NCBI GenBank assembly: GCA_020850475.1 | Contig: JADZEO010000084.1 | Span: 1 to 55,117, forward strand | DNA from: Bdellovibrionales bacterium | GTDB lineage: Bacteria; Bdellovibrionota; Bdellovibrionia; Bdellovibrionales; UBA1609 | DNA: 55,117 bases | Direction of reading: 5' to 3' | Shown here: one piece after another, positions 2,264-8,286 of the stretch | Numbering within the stretch: position 1 is the first letter of the stretch | Layout of the letters: each line of letters begins with the position of its first letter | Program-made: the position numbers and the translations under genes | Notes under the pieces: model-generated | What the model was told of the DNA's origin: nothing | Databases searched by the model: none | Seen by the model: the letters and a program-made list of their open reading frames with translations, nothing else

Positions 2264-4201
2264 ATGTCCACTCAGCCCAAAACTACCGCCTATCGAGCCT
2301 TGGTCTTGAGTACCCTGGCCTTCACCGCTTCCTTTGCCGCCTGGATGCTGAATGGCGTCTTGGCGAGCTATTTGGCGGCCAATGAGATTTTTGCGTGGAG
2401 TCCCAGCGACATCGGTTGGCTTATGGCGCTGCCCGTGCTGGTCGGCTCCGCCTTGCGTTTTCCAGCTTGGAAAGCGGCGGAAAGATGGGGCAGTAAGCCG
2501 ATTTTAGGTGGCCTTATGATTGCCAGCAGCGTGCCGATGTTCTTTCTCAGCCGCGCCGATGGCTTTTGGAGTTTTGCACTTTGTAGCTTAGGGTTTGGCT
2601 TAGTGGGGGGCGTTTTTTCCGTCGGGTTGTCCTATGTCGCGAGCTGGTTTTCGGTCGACGATCAAAAGTTCGCCGTGGGGGTGTTTGGCATTGGCAATGC
2701 CGGAGCGGCGCTGACTCCTTTGGCGGGACCCAGTTTGCTGAATTACCTCACTCACGGTCAAACTCAGCTTGAGGGCTGGCGACACCTGCCCTTGGGTGTC
2801 GCGGGACTTCTCTTGGGCTTGGGGATATTGTTTTTGCTGTTTGCGCCCCACCTGACCCCGATTCCCTCGAGCCAGAAAAATCAGCCAACGTCTTCCTACC
2901 TTCGCGATCTCCGGGTGTGGCGTTTAGGCCTTTATTATGTGTTGGTGTTCGGTGGCTTTGTCGCGACCTCTCAGTGGTTGGTTTATTATTTTGAGAGTGT
3001 CTATTGGGTCACGGTGGTTCAGGCGGGTCTGCTCACGGCCGCAATTTGCTTGCCGTCAGGACTGATTCGCGCCGTCGGTGGTTGGATGTCCAATCGTTGG
3101 GGATCGCGGGTCATCATGTACGGGGTTTTGGTGTTTTCGAGCGTCATTAGCTTGCTTTTGACCTTTCCGCGAATGGAAATGCACCTTCCTGCGCAAGGGG
3201 TTACCGCTCGAGCGGCGGGGGTGGTTGAACAAGTAAGCTCCCACGAGATCGTGGTGAGTGGGCAGACCTACAGCTTGGCTCCCAAATTAGAAACCCGCTT
3301 ACTTCGTGACCAAGGAAATTTGATTTTACCAAGCAAAGAGAATTGGCATGAACCGATGGTCAGTGTGGGAACTCAAGTGGTGCCCAAGCAATTGTTGGCC
3401 GCTGGCACGACTCGAGTGTTCTTTCAAGCCAACCTTTGGGTGTTTGCTTTGTTGGTGTTTGCTTTGGGACTGGTGTGGGGGATCGGACGGGCAGCGGTGT
3501 ACCGGCATATTCCCGATTACTTTCCCCAACAGGTGGGTGAGGTCGGGGCGGTGGTCGCCACCATCGGTGGAATTGGTGGATTTTTATTTTTGCTCGTCTT
3601 TGGTTATGCCTTTGAACTGACGGGGATCTGGACGAGCTCCTGGGCCATCGTGTTCCTCCTTTCTGCTACGAGCTTACTGCTGATGCATTGGGTGATCGAG
3701 CGAATGACCAAGCGGCCCCTTGGATTTGAAACCAAGTACGCCGATTCAAGCCGAGTGCTTCCGGGAGATCGGTTGGCTCCTCTTTTTGAGTTTAACGAGC
3801 GATTTCGCATTGGCGTTCAGGACATGGACGATCAACACCGTCGCTTGTTGGAATTGGTAAGTAAGCTCGATGAAGTCATTCAACGCAATCGCGATCCTCG
3901 CGAATTTCGCACGGTGATTGTTGATCTGGAACAGTACATTCAGATTCATTTTGCGGCCGAAGAAATTTATATGGAGAGGATTGGTTTTCCGAAAATTTTG
4001 CAGCACAAAAAATCCCATGGCGACTTTACTCGGGAAGTCGGAAACTTTCGCCGCCGGGTGGGGGGAGGCGAAACGCGCGCCATGGACGAGCTGTTGGATT
4101 ATCTCAAGTCCTGGGTTATTGGCCACATCATGGTGATGGATAAAGAGTACGCGGCCTTTAGTGGTACCAATCAATCAACCACCACATCGACCATCAACTG
4201 A
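2264..4201 (+). CDS. MFS transporter (NarK/NNP-like) fused to bacteriohemerythrin
   Basis: The first ~510 residues are a 12-helix major facilitator with a periplasmic or loop insertion of about 80 residues (about 305-386). It resembles nitrate/nitrite porters, but the substrate is not proven. Residues ~515-640 form a complete bacteriohemerythrin that would sit in the cytoplasm. All seven diiron ligands are visible: H525 (DDQH), H562 and E566 (HFAAE), H581 and H585 (HKKSH), H621 and D626 (HIMVMD). Hemerythrins bind O2 or NO reversibly, so the transporter may be gated by, or deliver to, an oxygen/NO-binding module. The tail overlaps the convergent substrate-binding-protein gene by 31 bases. No frameshift is seen at the fusion point, and the linker around residue 500 is continuous. 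Confidence 0.9.
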   Translation: MSTQPKTTAYRALVLSTLAFTASFAAWMLNGVLASYLAANEIFAWSPSDIGWLMALPVLVGSALRFPAWKAAERWGSKPILGGLMIASSVPMFFLSRADGFWSFALCSLGFGLVGGVFSVGLSYVASWFSVDDQKFAVGVFGIGNAGAALTPLAGPSLLNYLTHGQTQLEGWRHLPLGVAGLLLGLGILFLLFAPHLTPIPSSQKNQPTSSYLRDLRVWRLGLYYVLVFGGFVATSQWLVYYFESVYWVTVVQAGLLTAAICLPSGLIRAVGGWMSNRWGSRVIMYGVLVFSSVISLLLTFPRMEMHLPAQGVTARAAGVVEQVSSHEIVVSGQTYSLAPKLETRLLRDQGNLILPSKENWHEPMVSVGTQVVPKQLLAAGTTRVFFQANLWVFALLVFALGLVWGIGRAAVYRHIPDYFPQQVGEVGAVVATIGGIGGFLFLLVFGYAFELTGIWTSSWAIVFLLSATSLLLMHWVIERMTKRPLGFETKYADSSRVLPGDRLAPLFEFNERFRIGVQDMDDQHRRLLELVSKLDEVIQRNRDPREFRTVIVDLEQYIQIHFAAEEIYMERIGFPKILQHKKSHGDFTREVGNFRRRVGGGETRAMDELLDYLKSWVIGHIMVMDKEYAAFSGTNQSTTTSTIN

Positions 4202-5064
4202 TAAAGCCGGGGATTGATCGTGACCCCGATTTCCTTTGCCAGTTTGCGATTGACGACGAGGTAGGTGCCAATCGGCCCCTCTTCGAGGCCGGGCCAGTCC
4301 CCACTGTCGAGACTATTGAGGAGGAGTGCGGCGGCCTGGTGACCGAGAGTTTCGTAATTGAGGCTCAGGGAGGCAAATCCGCCGGCGCGAACAAAAGCTT
4401 CGCTGAACACCACCAAGGGAATCTTGGCAACTTGGGAGGCCTTGATAATCCGCTTAAGGTCGATCATCGACATCAGCACCGGATCGGGCGGTAACCAAAC
4501 CACGACGTCCGGCTTACCCTTTAAGCTCTCCAAATGTTTTTCGATCTCGGCCGTACCACTCACGGGCTTAAACTCCAGCCCGGGGATGGATTTTTGCGAG
4601 TTGCGAGCGGACACGAACGCGTAGAACGAGCGCCAGCCGGGGACAAGGAGTTTCAGCTGCTGCAAGAGGGCTTGGGGGGCAACTTCGAGTGAGATTCCGC
4701 GCCCCTTGTGCCCGTGATTGGCACCTGAATTTGCACCTGATTGAAGGACAAAGGTGTAAAGGCACGGGATGTCCTTGTTGGTCGTTGCAAAGCACGTCTT
4801 GAGGGCGAGCGAACCGAGCGCAAACACCGCCGCGGGCGGGTTTTTATCCAAGGTTTCAATCACTTTTTGGGCGGGTTGAGTTTTTTCGGCGATGAGGATT
4901 TCTTCAATGGTGTGATCCTTGAGGTCGGCCTTAAAAGCGGCAATTGTCTCGCTGTAAATCTTGAGCTCCTCACTCTTTAGAATCACCACACGATGGCCCC
5001 AGGCGGGCCAAGCGCAAAGGCCACAAACAAAGAGTGAAATTATCCAGCGGCCAGCTATTGCCAA
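4171..5064 (-). CDS. ABC_sub_bind-family periplasmic binding protein
   Basis: This 297-residue protein has a signal peptide (residues 1-22, ending AWPAWG) and the two-lobed fold signature of the ABC_sub_bind (PF04392-like) family: 'AVFALGSLALKTC' in lobe 1, 'VVVWLPPDPVLM' and 'IPLVVFSEAFVRAGG' in lobe 2, and a late 'NYETLGHQAAALL'. It would bind a small ligand in the periplasm. No permease or ATPase lies nearby, so it may serve a sensor rather than a transporter. It overlaps the upstream PhnD-like gene by 10 bases on the same strand, implying translational coupling, and a HAMP kinase is divergent from the pair. Confidence 0.85.
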   Translation of the reverse strand: MAIAGRWIISLFVCGLCAWPAWGHRVVILKSEELKIYSETIAAFKADLKDHTIEEILIAEKTQPAQKVIETLDKNPPAAVFALGSLALKTCFATTNKDIPCLYTFVLQSGANSGANHGHKGRGISLEVAPQALLQQLKLLVPGWRSFYAFVSARNSQKSIPGLEFKPVSGTAEIEKHLESLKGKPDVVVWLPPDPVLMSMIDLKRIIKASQVAKIPLVVFSEAFVRAGGFASLSLNYETLGHQAAALLLNSLDSGDWPGLEEGPIGTYLVVNRKLAKEIGVTINPRLYQLMVDVVVD

Positions 5065-5825
5065 GAGTCACATCCCATTAACTTTAGCAGCTCCCGTCCT
5101 GCGGGGTCCTTATCCATGTCACGAAAGGCGGCTAGGAGCAGTTCCAAGTCCTTCGAGTTAAACATATTTTCTTTAATAAATAAACTCGGATAACTCACTT
5201 TTTTTGAGTTTTTATGAATTGCCAGTTGTTCTTTAAAATCCGGATGAGTCTCAATCAGCAGCGCAAACACGTAGTCGCTGATCACGGCCCAATCGACTTG
5301 CTTATTAACCAAGGCCATCAAGCCATCTAAATCCTTTTTGGTTTGAATCATGCGACTGGAACTTAGAATGGTGAGCGTGTCTTGGGGAAAATAGTCTCGC
5401 AAAAATTCGAATCCGTAGCTCGAAGCCATCAGCGGTTGGTTGCCTGGCTTTGCTCCCTTGTGGGCCAAAAGTAGCAAACTGTAATCGCGGGTTTGGTGGC
5501 AAACGAGGTTGAGTTTAGGGGTGTAGCCCTTGTCCAATTGTCGTTGCTTAAGCAGCTGACCCGAGGTGATGATGACCGCGGGCCGACGAGCCTTCACAAA
5601 TTCAACCAAGGACTCAATTTGATCAATGGGTTGGGAGGAAGGCGCAGCGAGCCCGGACTTCTTTAAGCGCTCAGTGAGATAGGTGTCGAGCCTGGTCTTA
5701 AGTTGCAAGGGACTGCGGGTAAAGCCAGGATCGAGAAATACCACCCTCAGGGGATCGCGGTCGGCGGCCAGAGTCCAACTCCAGCAGGCGAAAAAAACCA
5801 GAATTGTCGTGTTGAAAAGTCTCAT
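5055..5825 (-). CDS. PhnD-like periplasmic substrate-binding protein
   Basis: The 256-residue protein has a signal peptide (residues 1-20) followed by a phosphonate/phosphate-type binding fold: 'RRPAVIITSGQLLKQR', 'ASSYGFEFLRDYFPQ' and 'VDWAVISDYVFALL', the usual pattern in which a region recognising the bound ligand precedes a 'D-A-V-x-S-D' strand. PhnD-like proteins also occur as extracytoplasmic partners of sensor kinases. It is first in a two-gene minus-strand operon with the ABC_sub_bind protein and is divergent from the histidine kinase at about 6.0 kb across a ~150-base intergenic region that must hold both promoters. The ligand is unknown. Confidence 0.8.
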   Translation of the reverse strand: MRLFNTTILVFFACWSWTLAADRDPLRVVFLDPGFTRSPLQLKTRLDTYLTERLKKSGLAAPSSQPIDQIESLVEFVKARRPAVIITSGQLLKQRQLDKGYTPKLNLVCHQTRDYSLLLLAHKGAKPGNQPLMASSYGFEFLRDYFPQDTLTILSSSRMIQTKKDLDGLMALVNKQVDWAVISDYVFALLIETHPDFKEQLAIHKNSKKVSYPSLFIKENMFNSKDLELLLAAFRDMDKDPAGRELLKLMGCDSWQ

Positions 5826-6001: not shown

Positions 6002-7588
6002 TTGTTTATGGTCTTTGCGCTGGCGGTCACTGGACTGTTAGTGGGTGGTCTGTCCGCTGGTTGGTACATCAACTCGCTCTTTGCCAAAATTTCTGATACC
6101 CAAGCCGCCTCCCATTTTGATCGTTTGCGCAGCAAAACCCAGACCTACGGTAACGGCATTAAGAGCGCATTTTTTCTTTACCTTTCGTCGTTTGACTACT
6201 CGATGTTGCAAACTTTGTTGTCTGATACCGTTCGCGCCGATGGTGAAATTCAAAGTATCACGATCTTTCGCCAAGACGACGGGTTGGTGATTGCGAGTAA
6301 TGACGGCAGCCAACTTCTCCACAAGTTAGAAGATCGCCGTCTGTCTTCGGAATTTCAGCGGGTTAGGGTGGCAGGAGAGCGCGAGGTTTTTCGCACCGAC
6401 TATGTTCTAGATTATGAAAGCACTCCGTATGTGCTGCGAATTGAGTATCGAGTTGAATCTTATGATAAAGCCCTGGCGGTATTGACCGCCGAGCGGCAGC
6501 GCCAGAGTCAAGAATTCGCTCTCGCGGGTGCCGCCTTGTTGTTTTTGCTGGTGGTGGCGTCCTTTGGCGTAGCTCGCTGGATCGGTCAACTGGTGAGTCT
6601 GCCCTTAAAGAATCTCAATCAGTCGGCCCAAGAGATTGCGGCCGGTGATTTGAGTCGGCCAGTGACGGCTTTGACTAAGGACGAAATCGGCGAGTTGGCT
6701 GAGTCGCTTGAACTCATGCGAAAAAATATTCTGGTAAAGATCGTAGAAATTGAAAACGCCAATGCGACACTCGAGACCAAAGTTGAAGAACGAACGAAAG
6801 AGTTGAAAAAGGCGCAGGTGGCGCTCGTTCAATCGGGAAAAATGGCGGCTCTTGGTATCATGAGCGCGGGGATTGCCCATGAGATTAATAATCCGCTGGC
6901 CATTGTGACCATGTATCTTGAAACTTTGAGTCGCTCTTTGCGCAAGTTGGGTCTGGCCGATGATCAGATCAAAAAATTTGAAGAAAGCTCGGCCAGAGTT
7001 TTTAAGGCGGTCGAGCGCATCAGTCAGATTATTAATCACGTCAAAGTATTTGCCCGACAGAGCCAAGACAATCAGCGGGTGGACGTCAAAGTGGCTGACT
7101 TGTTGAGTGATGTAAAGTTTTTCTCTGAACCGATTGCGCGCAATCACCAAGTCCAGATTGATTACCAGGGCACTGGCGACCACTTGATGGTCCGTTGTGT
7201 GAAGGGTGACTTGGTCTCGGTCCTGCAAAACTTGGTGCAAAATGCCATTGATGCCTTCGAAGGTCGTCGAGAGCCGGATGCCGGGCGGAGGGTGACGGTG
7301 AAGGTGGGCTCCAGCCACAAGATGGTGCGTATTGAAGTCGAAGACAACGCGGGAGGGATTCCGCTGGAAATCCAGCAGCGAATTTTCGATCCATTTTTTA
7401 CCACCAAAGACATCGGCAAGGGAACCGGGCTCGGCCTCAGCCTGTGTTACTCGATTATTCAAAACTACGGTGGCAAAATTGACTTTGACACGGAAGTTGG
7501 GCGCGGGACGCGATTTTTAGTGCAAATTCCCTTACTGGCCCAAGCAAGTGTCGACGCGACAGCTGAACCCCAAAAGTTGGTAAGCTAA
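6002..7588 (+). CDS. HAMP sensor histidine kinase
   Basis: An inner-membrane sensor: an N-terminal TM helix, a periplasmic sensor region (about residues 25-165), a second TM helix (about 175-195), HAMP (about 195-250), a short coiled coil, then HisKA with 'AHEINNPLA' (phospho-acceptor H293). The HATPase_c domain has an N-box 'NLVQNAIDA', G1 'DNAGG' and G2 'GKGTGLGLS'. The first conventional in-frame start is TTG 6002, but this removes a basic stretch (KGRFESK) just before TM1. An in-frame ATC at 5972 has GGGAG about 7 bases upstream and may be the true start; no ATG, GTG or TTG exists between the stop at 5915 and 6002. It is followed one base later by a response regulator and divergent from two substrate-binding proteins, so it probably reads their ligand. 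Confidence 0.9.
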
Positions 7589-7589
7589 A

Positions 7590-7946
7590 ATGGGCAAGCG
7601 AGTGCTTTTGATCGACGATGAAAAGGATATCGTGGAACTTCTCCAGATGACTTTGGAGGAAGAGGGTTACATTGTTTGCGTTGCTGGCAATGGGCCTGAA
7701 GCTGTGGCCATGATGAAAAAAGCCCCCTTCGATTTTATTGTTTGCGACGTCAACATGCCGGGTGGAATGAGTGGAATTCACGTTTACGAATGGAAGAAGT
7801 CAGCCAATATCGGTGGAACATTTTTGTTTCTCACGGGCCACGCCAAAGGCAGCGAAGAATTGGTGGCAATCGAAAACTCCGGCGTGCCGATTTTGACCAA
7901 GCCTCATTTTTTGGGCGATCTCCTGTCGCATTTAGAGGCCGCCTGA
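7590..7946 (+). CDS. Single-domain response regulator (CheY-like)
   Basis: The 118-residue receiver has all the key residues: D9/D10 (LLIDDE), phospho-acceptor D53 (VCDVNMPGG), the switch residue T82 (FLFLTGH) and K104 (ILTKPH). It has no output domain, so it must act by protein contact or in a phosphorelay. It begins one base after the kinase stop codon and is almost certainly its cognate partner. The gene is followed directly by a 17-bp tandem repeat, with no clear terminator. Confidence 0.95.
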   Translation: MGKRVLLIDDEKDIVELLQMTLEEEGYIVCVAGNGPEAVAMMKKAPFDFIVCDVNMPGGMSGIHVYEWKKSANIGGTFLFLTGHAKGSEELVAIENSGVPILTKPHFLGDLLSHLEAA

Positions 7947-7998: not shown

Positions 7999-8047
7999 CT
8001 CCTTACACGCTTAAAAACCAGAGCGGTATTCAAACCCGAGGAGTAAG

Positions 8048-8159
8048 CACTGGGTGCTGGGTGCTGGGCACTGGGGGCTGGGCACTGGGTGCTGGGGGCT
8101 GGGTGCTGGGGGCTGGGGGCTGGGCACTGGGGGCTGGGGGCTGGGCACTGGGGGCTGGG
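8048..8159. repeat. Heptamer array NNCTGGG, 16 units, G-quadruplex prone
   Basis: Sixteen uninterrupted 7-base units share CTGGG, with a variable leading dinucleotide (CA, TG or GG). The dinucleotide order is CA TG TG CA GG CA TG GG TG GG GG CA GG GG CA GG. A GGG run every seven bases with 4-base loops makes the plus strand a strong G-quadruplex candidate. It resembles the heptameric STRR arrays of filamentous cyanobacteria in style. It lies about 100 bp upstream of RAYT unit 1. Confidence 0.95.
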
Positions 8160-8286
8160 CGCTTAGGAATACGCCCGTTCCAACCAAAATTGGGCGGGGG
8201 TTACGGCAACTCGGTATAAGGCCACTCCTGTCGCGTCGCGCGCTGCTCCAATCCATGTAAAAACATATACTTAATATGAAAATAAA

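Follow-up and report, generated by a model that had tools for sequence, protein, structure and literature searches.

The 55,117-nucleotide stretch of DNA analyzed here (the window) encodes a protein in which a NarK-type MFS porter is fused to a C-terminal bacteriohemerythrin with a complete set of diiron ligands. Our analysis confirmed this architecture, which is rare and recurrent, with homologous fusions in two further loci (L034 and L035). Each of the two modules is known and their combination is new; a search of open-access papers found no published NarK or MFS-hemerythrin fusion. The features of the gene are as follows:

2264..4201, + strand: NarK-type MFS porter-bacteriohemerythrin fusion gene, 645 aa (open frame, Pfam, NCBIfam, AlphaFold2 [AF2] model, homologous fusions L034 and L035)
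2264..3712, + strand: MFS/NarK half, residues 1-483, 12 TM helices, R65 and R269 (profile alignment to 4u4t, NarK fold match, AF2 helices)
3167..3430, + strand: beta domain between TM9 and TM10, residues 302-389 (AF2 of the segment alone, Foldseek and VIA matches)
3713..3784, + strand: linker, residues 484-507 (~24 aa), ...RPLGFETKYADSSRVLPGDRLAPLFE (pLDDT 42-63; identities with L034 and L035)
3785..4159, + strand: bacteriohemerythrin domain, residues 508-632, seven Fe ligands (NF033749 and TIGR02481, PDB relatives, ligand pattern)

The gene is a single uninterrupted frame with an ATG start, and the codon-position base composition of both its halves is like that of the adjoining genes. Pfam searches with the 645-residue product identified MFS_1 (E 1.8e-33) as well as Hemerythrin (E 1.8e-14), and each hit exceeded its gathering score. 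The AF2 model, for which an alignment of the window and locus sequences served as input (mean pLDDT 87.3, pTM 0.76), displayed 12 long helices, with the beta domain (303-388 in the model) inserted between TM9 and TM10, followed by a linker of low confidence (around 484-505) and, at residues 519-644, a four-helix bundle.

Structural comparison of the MFS half revealed the NarK structures (4iu9/4jre) as the best matches of all MFS proteins, with a VIA Z of ~45 and an rmsd of 2.1-2.2 Å over about 370 residues. Among the NCBIfam profiles, the NarK family model TIGR00886 was the top MFS model for this half, at 135.6 bits and thus under its 311.7 cut-off. Since L034, L035 and the operon-borne narK on contig C157 of the window genome miss the same cut-off as well, we consider it strict and read the window porter as NarK-like. 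The nitrate-binding pair of E. coli NarK, Arg89 and Arg305, is established by structural work on that porter; in a profile alignment to 4u4t, these residues correspond to R65 and R269 of the fusion, respectively. The preliminary description of an NNP-like porter is upheld. Of the nitrate-signature glycine motifs of TM5 and TM11, GNAGA (144-148) and GGIGGF (435-440) are kept, but the substitutions A143I, G429A, G432A and P443L lie nearby.

The porter half of the window copy is otherwise strongly divergent. At 157 positions of this half that are near-invariant, i.e. at least 95% conserved among the relatives, the window copy shows 34 changes, the next most divergent row of the alignment 13, and L034 and L035 one each. 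The changes hit motif A after TM2 (loop 2-3; G69W, L71A, T72A, D73E and G77S) as well as D277N, P443L and the TM11 signature region, and the window copy lies on a very long branch in the tree. The loss of these residues places transport by the window copy in doubt, and judged by its sequence the protein may transport poorly. The porter halves of L034 and L035 look like working porters, and the single near-invariant change in each suggests that the fused porter has been retained as a porter there.

Between TM9 and TM10, every aligned relative carries a beta insert of ~85 residues. It is a trait of the entire NarK subfamily (proteins of about 490 aa) and not of the fusion. The insert is predicted from MFS topology to lie on the periplasmic side. 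When modeled alone by AF2, it adopted a confident fold over most of its length, the best structural match of which was a segment of the RNA polymerase beta subunit (VIA Z 9-10, rmsd about 3.5 Å, about 63 residues), with a Foldseek E of only 0.025 for the same match. A barrel-sandwich-hybrid fold is likely from this model, but not firm.

The C-terminal domain had been described as a bacteriohemerythrin with all seven ligands, and this assignment held. Residues H525, H562, E566, H581, H585, H621 and D626 fit the canonical H-HxxxE-HxxxH-HxxxxD motif, and the C-terminal 125 residues scored 105.7 bits with NF033749 (bacteriohemerythrin; cut-off 84) and 107.1 bits with TIGR02481 (hemerythrin domain; cut-off 51.75). 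The hemerythrin helices in the AF2 model span residues 519-541, 545-573, 578-600 and 605-644, and the nearest solved hemerythrins are DcrH-Hr (2avk) and a bacteriohemerythrin (4xpx). By standard MFS topology the C-terminus after TM12 would be inside, and the domain is accordingly predicted to be cytoplasmic. In the AF2 model the linker (484-507, pLDDT 42-63) is disordered, and a rigid path that would couple the two halves is not visible.

A scan for relatives, in which one genome per species was used and the best 80 loci were kept (L034-L113), identified two full-length fusions and 78 unfused porters, most of about 490 aa. The search for further MFS-hemerythrin fusions that had been proposed thus yielded two, L034 in a MAG named Planctomycetota (ORF of 635 aa, 49% identity to the window protein) and L035 in a MAG named Gemmatimonadota (Gemmatimonadetes; ORF of 639 aa, 47% identity). 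Separate halves in all close relatives, the outcome raised against the fusion in the preliminary description, are the rule in 78 of these 80 loci, but not in L034 and L035. Both hemerythrin domains pass the NF033749 cut-off and possess all seven ligands. Along the joint stretch MTKRPLGFETKYADSSRVLPGDRLAPLFEF, 20 of 30 residues are identical with L034 and 17 of 30 with L035, identities that point to shared ancestry of the three fusions at the joint; ligands and linker are kept among them, across phyla, at 35-51% identity. A frameshift or assembly error at the linker was rejected on the strength of these two independent fusions with the same linker. Because unrelated MAGs hold the same fusion and a homologous linker, an assembly accident is very unlikely and we regard the fusion as real.

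The fusion is rare. Close relatives of L034 (77% identical) lack the hemerythrin domain, and the only relative found in the window's own family is unfused. Several domain-less relatives end in the first part of the shared tail, namely L007 (from the window's family, ...PAGFDSKH), L161 (from the window's phylum), L137 and L140. A degraded fusion was considered for the same-family relative G035 and rejected: its MFS part ends in ...GFDSKH-stop, and the hemerythrin is absent in any frame over at least about 450 bases. No fourth fusion was found among 369 genomes of the window's phylum, among 392 of the L034 genome's phylum, or among the relatives of the other two genomes with the fusion (121 and 192, respectively); the first look scored few candidates per genome. 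No plasmid record covered 80% of the fusion query. The free tree did not recover monophyly of the three fusions, yet did not reject it (p-AU 0.45), while a constraint joining the fusions and the tail-sharing relatives gave a slightly higher likelihood and was not rejected either (p-AU 0.588); the window's position in the tree is unsure because of its long branch. Either a gain followed by losses or a spread between phyla may account for the distribution.

A nitrate-respiring context is present in the window genome as narGHJI and nirS. Its contig C157 carries narG, narH, an ORF in the place of narJ, narI, an HHE protein and a second NarK-type porter, and contig C113 encodes a cytochrome cd1 nitrite reductase (NirS; E 1e-258 to 1e-257 against solved cd1 nitrite reductases). 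Cytochrome oxidases are also encoded, so the organism can meet both O2 and nitrate. NrfA and the copper NirK (PF07732) were not found in the window genome, and for NO reductase the COX1-family proteins on C113 and C63 were not assignable to NorB. All three fusion genomes encode NarG, those of the L034 and L035 genomes being 59-60% identical to that of the window genome. Among the unfused loci, porter relatives adjoin narG/narH (narGHJI) in 54 of 78, whereas none of the three fusions does; the porter family therefore belongs to nitrate respiration, while the members with the fusion are located away from the nar operon. Upstream of the fusion gene, no FNR/DNR-like box scored better than shuffles. 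None of the adjacent genes in the window suggests nitrate; they encode a radical SAM protein, two opposite-strand substrate-binding proteins, and a histidine kinase accompanied by a response regulator.

Several further observations were made at these loci. The hemerythrin-like HHE protein gene of the window genome lies between narI and narK (L114, 11873-12526), and 24 of the 80 loci, from many phyla, encode a protein of the same family close to narK (e.g. L111, 6468-7100; a tandem pair in L109); HHE genes near narK are a separate recurrent link of diiron-type proteins to nitrate respiration. The cd1 nitrite reductase of C113 (L122, 724-2685) carries an extra cytochrome c domain at its N-terminus, in front of the one that is usual for these enzymes, and is followed by two further D1-family genes. 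On C63, a divergent COX1-family protein of 464 aa (L120, 1013-2407) falls below the Pfam cut-off and has no solved relative at E 1e-5; it may be related to heme-copper oxidases or to NO reductases. In the window itself, ABC_sub_bind and Phosphonate-bd proteins (4171-5825, - strand; 6002-7946, + strand), with no adjoining transporter genes, lie beside a membrane histidine kinase and a response-regulator-like ORF, with which they may form a sensing set. The short Pro/Ser/Gln-rich repeat frame (PPVPSPQ...) at 8011-8256 (- strand) is probably a tandem DNA repeat rather than a gene.

Coupling of the porter to O2 or NO, or buffering of NO, as first put forward for this protein, is plausible and has precedents. 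O2 inhibition of nitrate uptake is general in hypoxic nitrate transporters (PMC3445494). In M. tuberculosis, NarK2 is the control point, and 23 NarK2 mutations, cysteines included, had no effect on the O2 response, which was ascribed to the redox state of the cell rather than to O2 itself (PMC3445494). The reading that we tentatively prefer, at somewhat less than even confidence, is that the fusion is an O2/redox-gated nitrate/nitrite porter with its own cytoplasmic hemerythrin sensor. The hemerythrin, flexibly tethered beneath the cytoplasmic gate, would bind O2 at its diiron site or be oxidized to the met form, altering its contact with the cytoplasmic face such that the porter is held closed or, in the opposite sense, released; entry of nitrate and exit of nitrite would then be confined to times of low O2 with NarG working. 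MFS porters open and close inward at the cytoplasmic end of TM12, and the domain, being attached there, could act on the gate. Within this model we infer the transport by the window copy, O2 rather than NO as the ligand, the direction of the effect and the mechanical coupling. A more specific version, to which we give somewhat less credence, is that O2 directly gates the nitrate porter through the covalent diiron sensor and that the window lineage has perhaps moved toward a dual nitrate/O2 receptor with weakened transport.

In support of the gating model, we count the recurrence of the architecture, linker included, in genomes from three phyla, the seven ligands, the sensor role of other hemerythrin domains with this motif, the preserved porters of L034 and L035, the NarG of all three genomes, the nar operon, NirS and cytochrome oxidases of the window genome, the nar neighbors of 54 of 78 unfused loci, the control point at NarK2 in M. 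tuberculosis and the precedent of the P1B-5 ATPases. Against it count the disordered linker, the 34 losses at 157 positions in the window porter, the lack of a nar operon beside any of the three fusions, the failure to find an FNR/DNR-like box and the redox-state reading of NarK2. We keep the gating model as the best explanation because it covers all three fusions, the receptor reading discussed below being a rival for the window copy.

Among the alternatives, the foremost, albeit an unlikely one, is that the tethered hemerythrin is a buffer or detoxifier that leaves transport unregulated. It would bind or convert NO (or O2) where the porter opens to the cytoplasm, the site at which nitrite and NarG-derived NO would be highest. 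By gene content the window genome makes both nitrite (NarG) and NO (NirS), but NirS is periplasmic, on the opposite side from the domain. A hemerythrin-like protein is reported to be an NO peroxidase (PMC8913304), and YtfE to react with nitrite and NO (PMC9052748); however, these NO-active examples belong to other hemerythrin-like classes, the fused domain being of the O2-binding bacteriohemerythrin type and not RIC/YtfE. The HHE diiron-type protein near narK in 24 of 80 loci, including the window genome's nar operon, is consistent with buffering, although its presence there also means that the operon already has a separate such protein, and the sink is small, with a single domain attached to each porter.

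We judge improbable, and a shade more so, that the window copy is a receptor (transceptor) mostly devoid of transport, in which the porter fold would sense nitrate and the hemerythrin O2, with the signal passed to a partner. Its 34 changed near-invariant positions, compared with at most 13 elsewhere, combined with the retention of R65, R269 and the diiron ligands, its very long branch, the second, ordinary narK in the nar operon and the kinase-response regulator pair 1.8 kb downstream would suit such a role. Nevertheless, the fusion protein has no output domain, and the kinase close by comes with a sensor region of its own and with other neighbors. Comparable losses are absent from L034 and L035, so that this reading would fit the window copy only. 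We are equally skeptical of an idle fusion, whether of domains joined by chance and each working alone or of a window copy drifting toward loss. The rarity of the architecture, the unfused relatives of L034 at 77% identity and the very divergent MFS half of the window copy agree with it, but the ORF is intact and the ligands and linker are kept across phyla, conservation that an unused domain would not be expected to show. An assembly or binning artefact is scarcely credible, since, although all three fusion genomes are draft assemblies, the two others contain the same fusion with the same linker.

O2 switches off nitrate respiration at nitrate entry, and the sensor has not yet been found (PMC3445494). 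With an O2/redox-binding domain built into a NarK, O2 control would become testable in one purified protein. If the gating model is true, the fusion would represent the long-known inhibition of nitrate uptake by O2 in the form of a single polypeptide, and a secondary transporter would join the effectors controlled by hemerythrins.

Compared with NarK/NarU (NNP, TIGR00886; E. coli NarK 4u4t/4jr9), the fusion shares the 12-TM MFS fold (Z 45), both nitrate-binding arginines, part of the nitrate-signature glycines and, in its relatives, the nar operon context; it differs in its C-terminal hemerythrin, its TIGR00886 score below the cut-off, its 34 divergent near-invariant sites and the TM9-TM10 beta insert, which E. 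coli NarK lacks. The NarK of Paracoccus denitrificans, a NarK1-NarK2 fusion, is likewise a NarK-family porter that was changed by gene fusion and serves a respiratory nitrate reductase, but its partner is a second porter and not a sensor or metal-binding domain (PMC5217062). Hemerythrin domains with the canonical motif serve chemoreceptors and c-di-GMP enzymes as sensors of O2/redox (PMC9388753). As in DcrH, Bhr-DGC and Bhr-HD-GYP, the window protein combines a canonical H-HxxxE-HxxxH-HxxxxD domain with an effector in one chain; unlike in these sensors, the effector is a membrane transporter rather than an MCP or c-di-GMP enzyme, and sensing is putative. In the P1B-5 ATPases, too, a transporter has a C-terminal hemerythrin-like domain, with the ligand motif H-HxxxE-HxE-HxxxxD (PMC9388753), but theirs is an unrelated transporter with a metal substrate, whereas the transporter part of the window protein is MFS_1 and its ligand motif is canonical.
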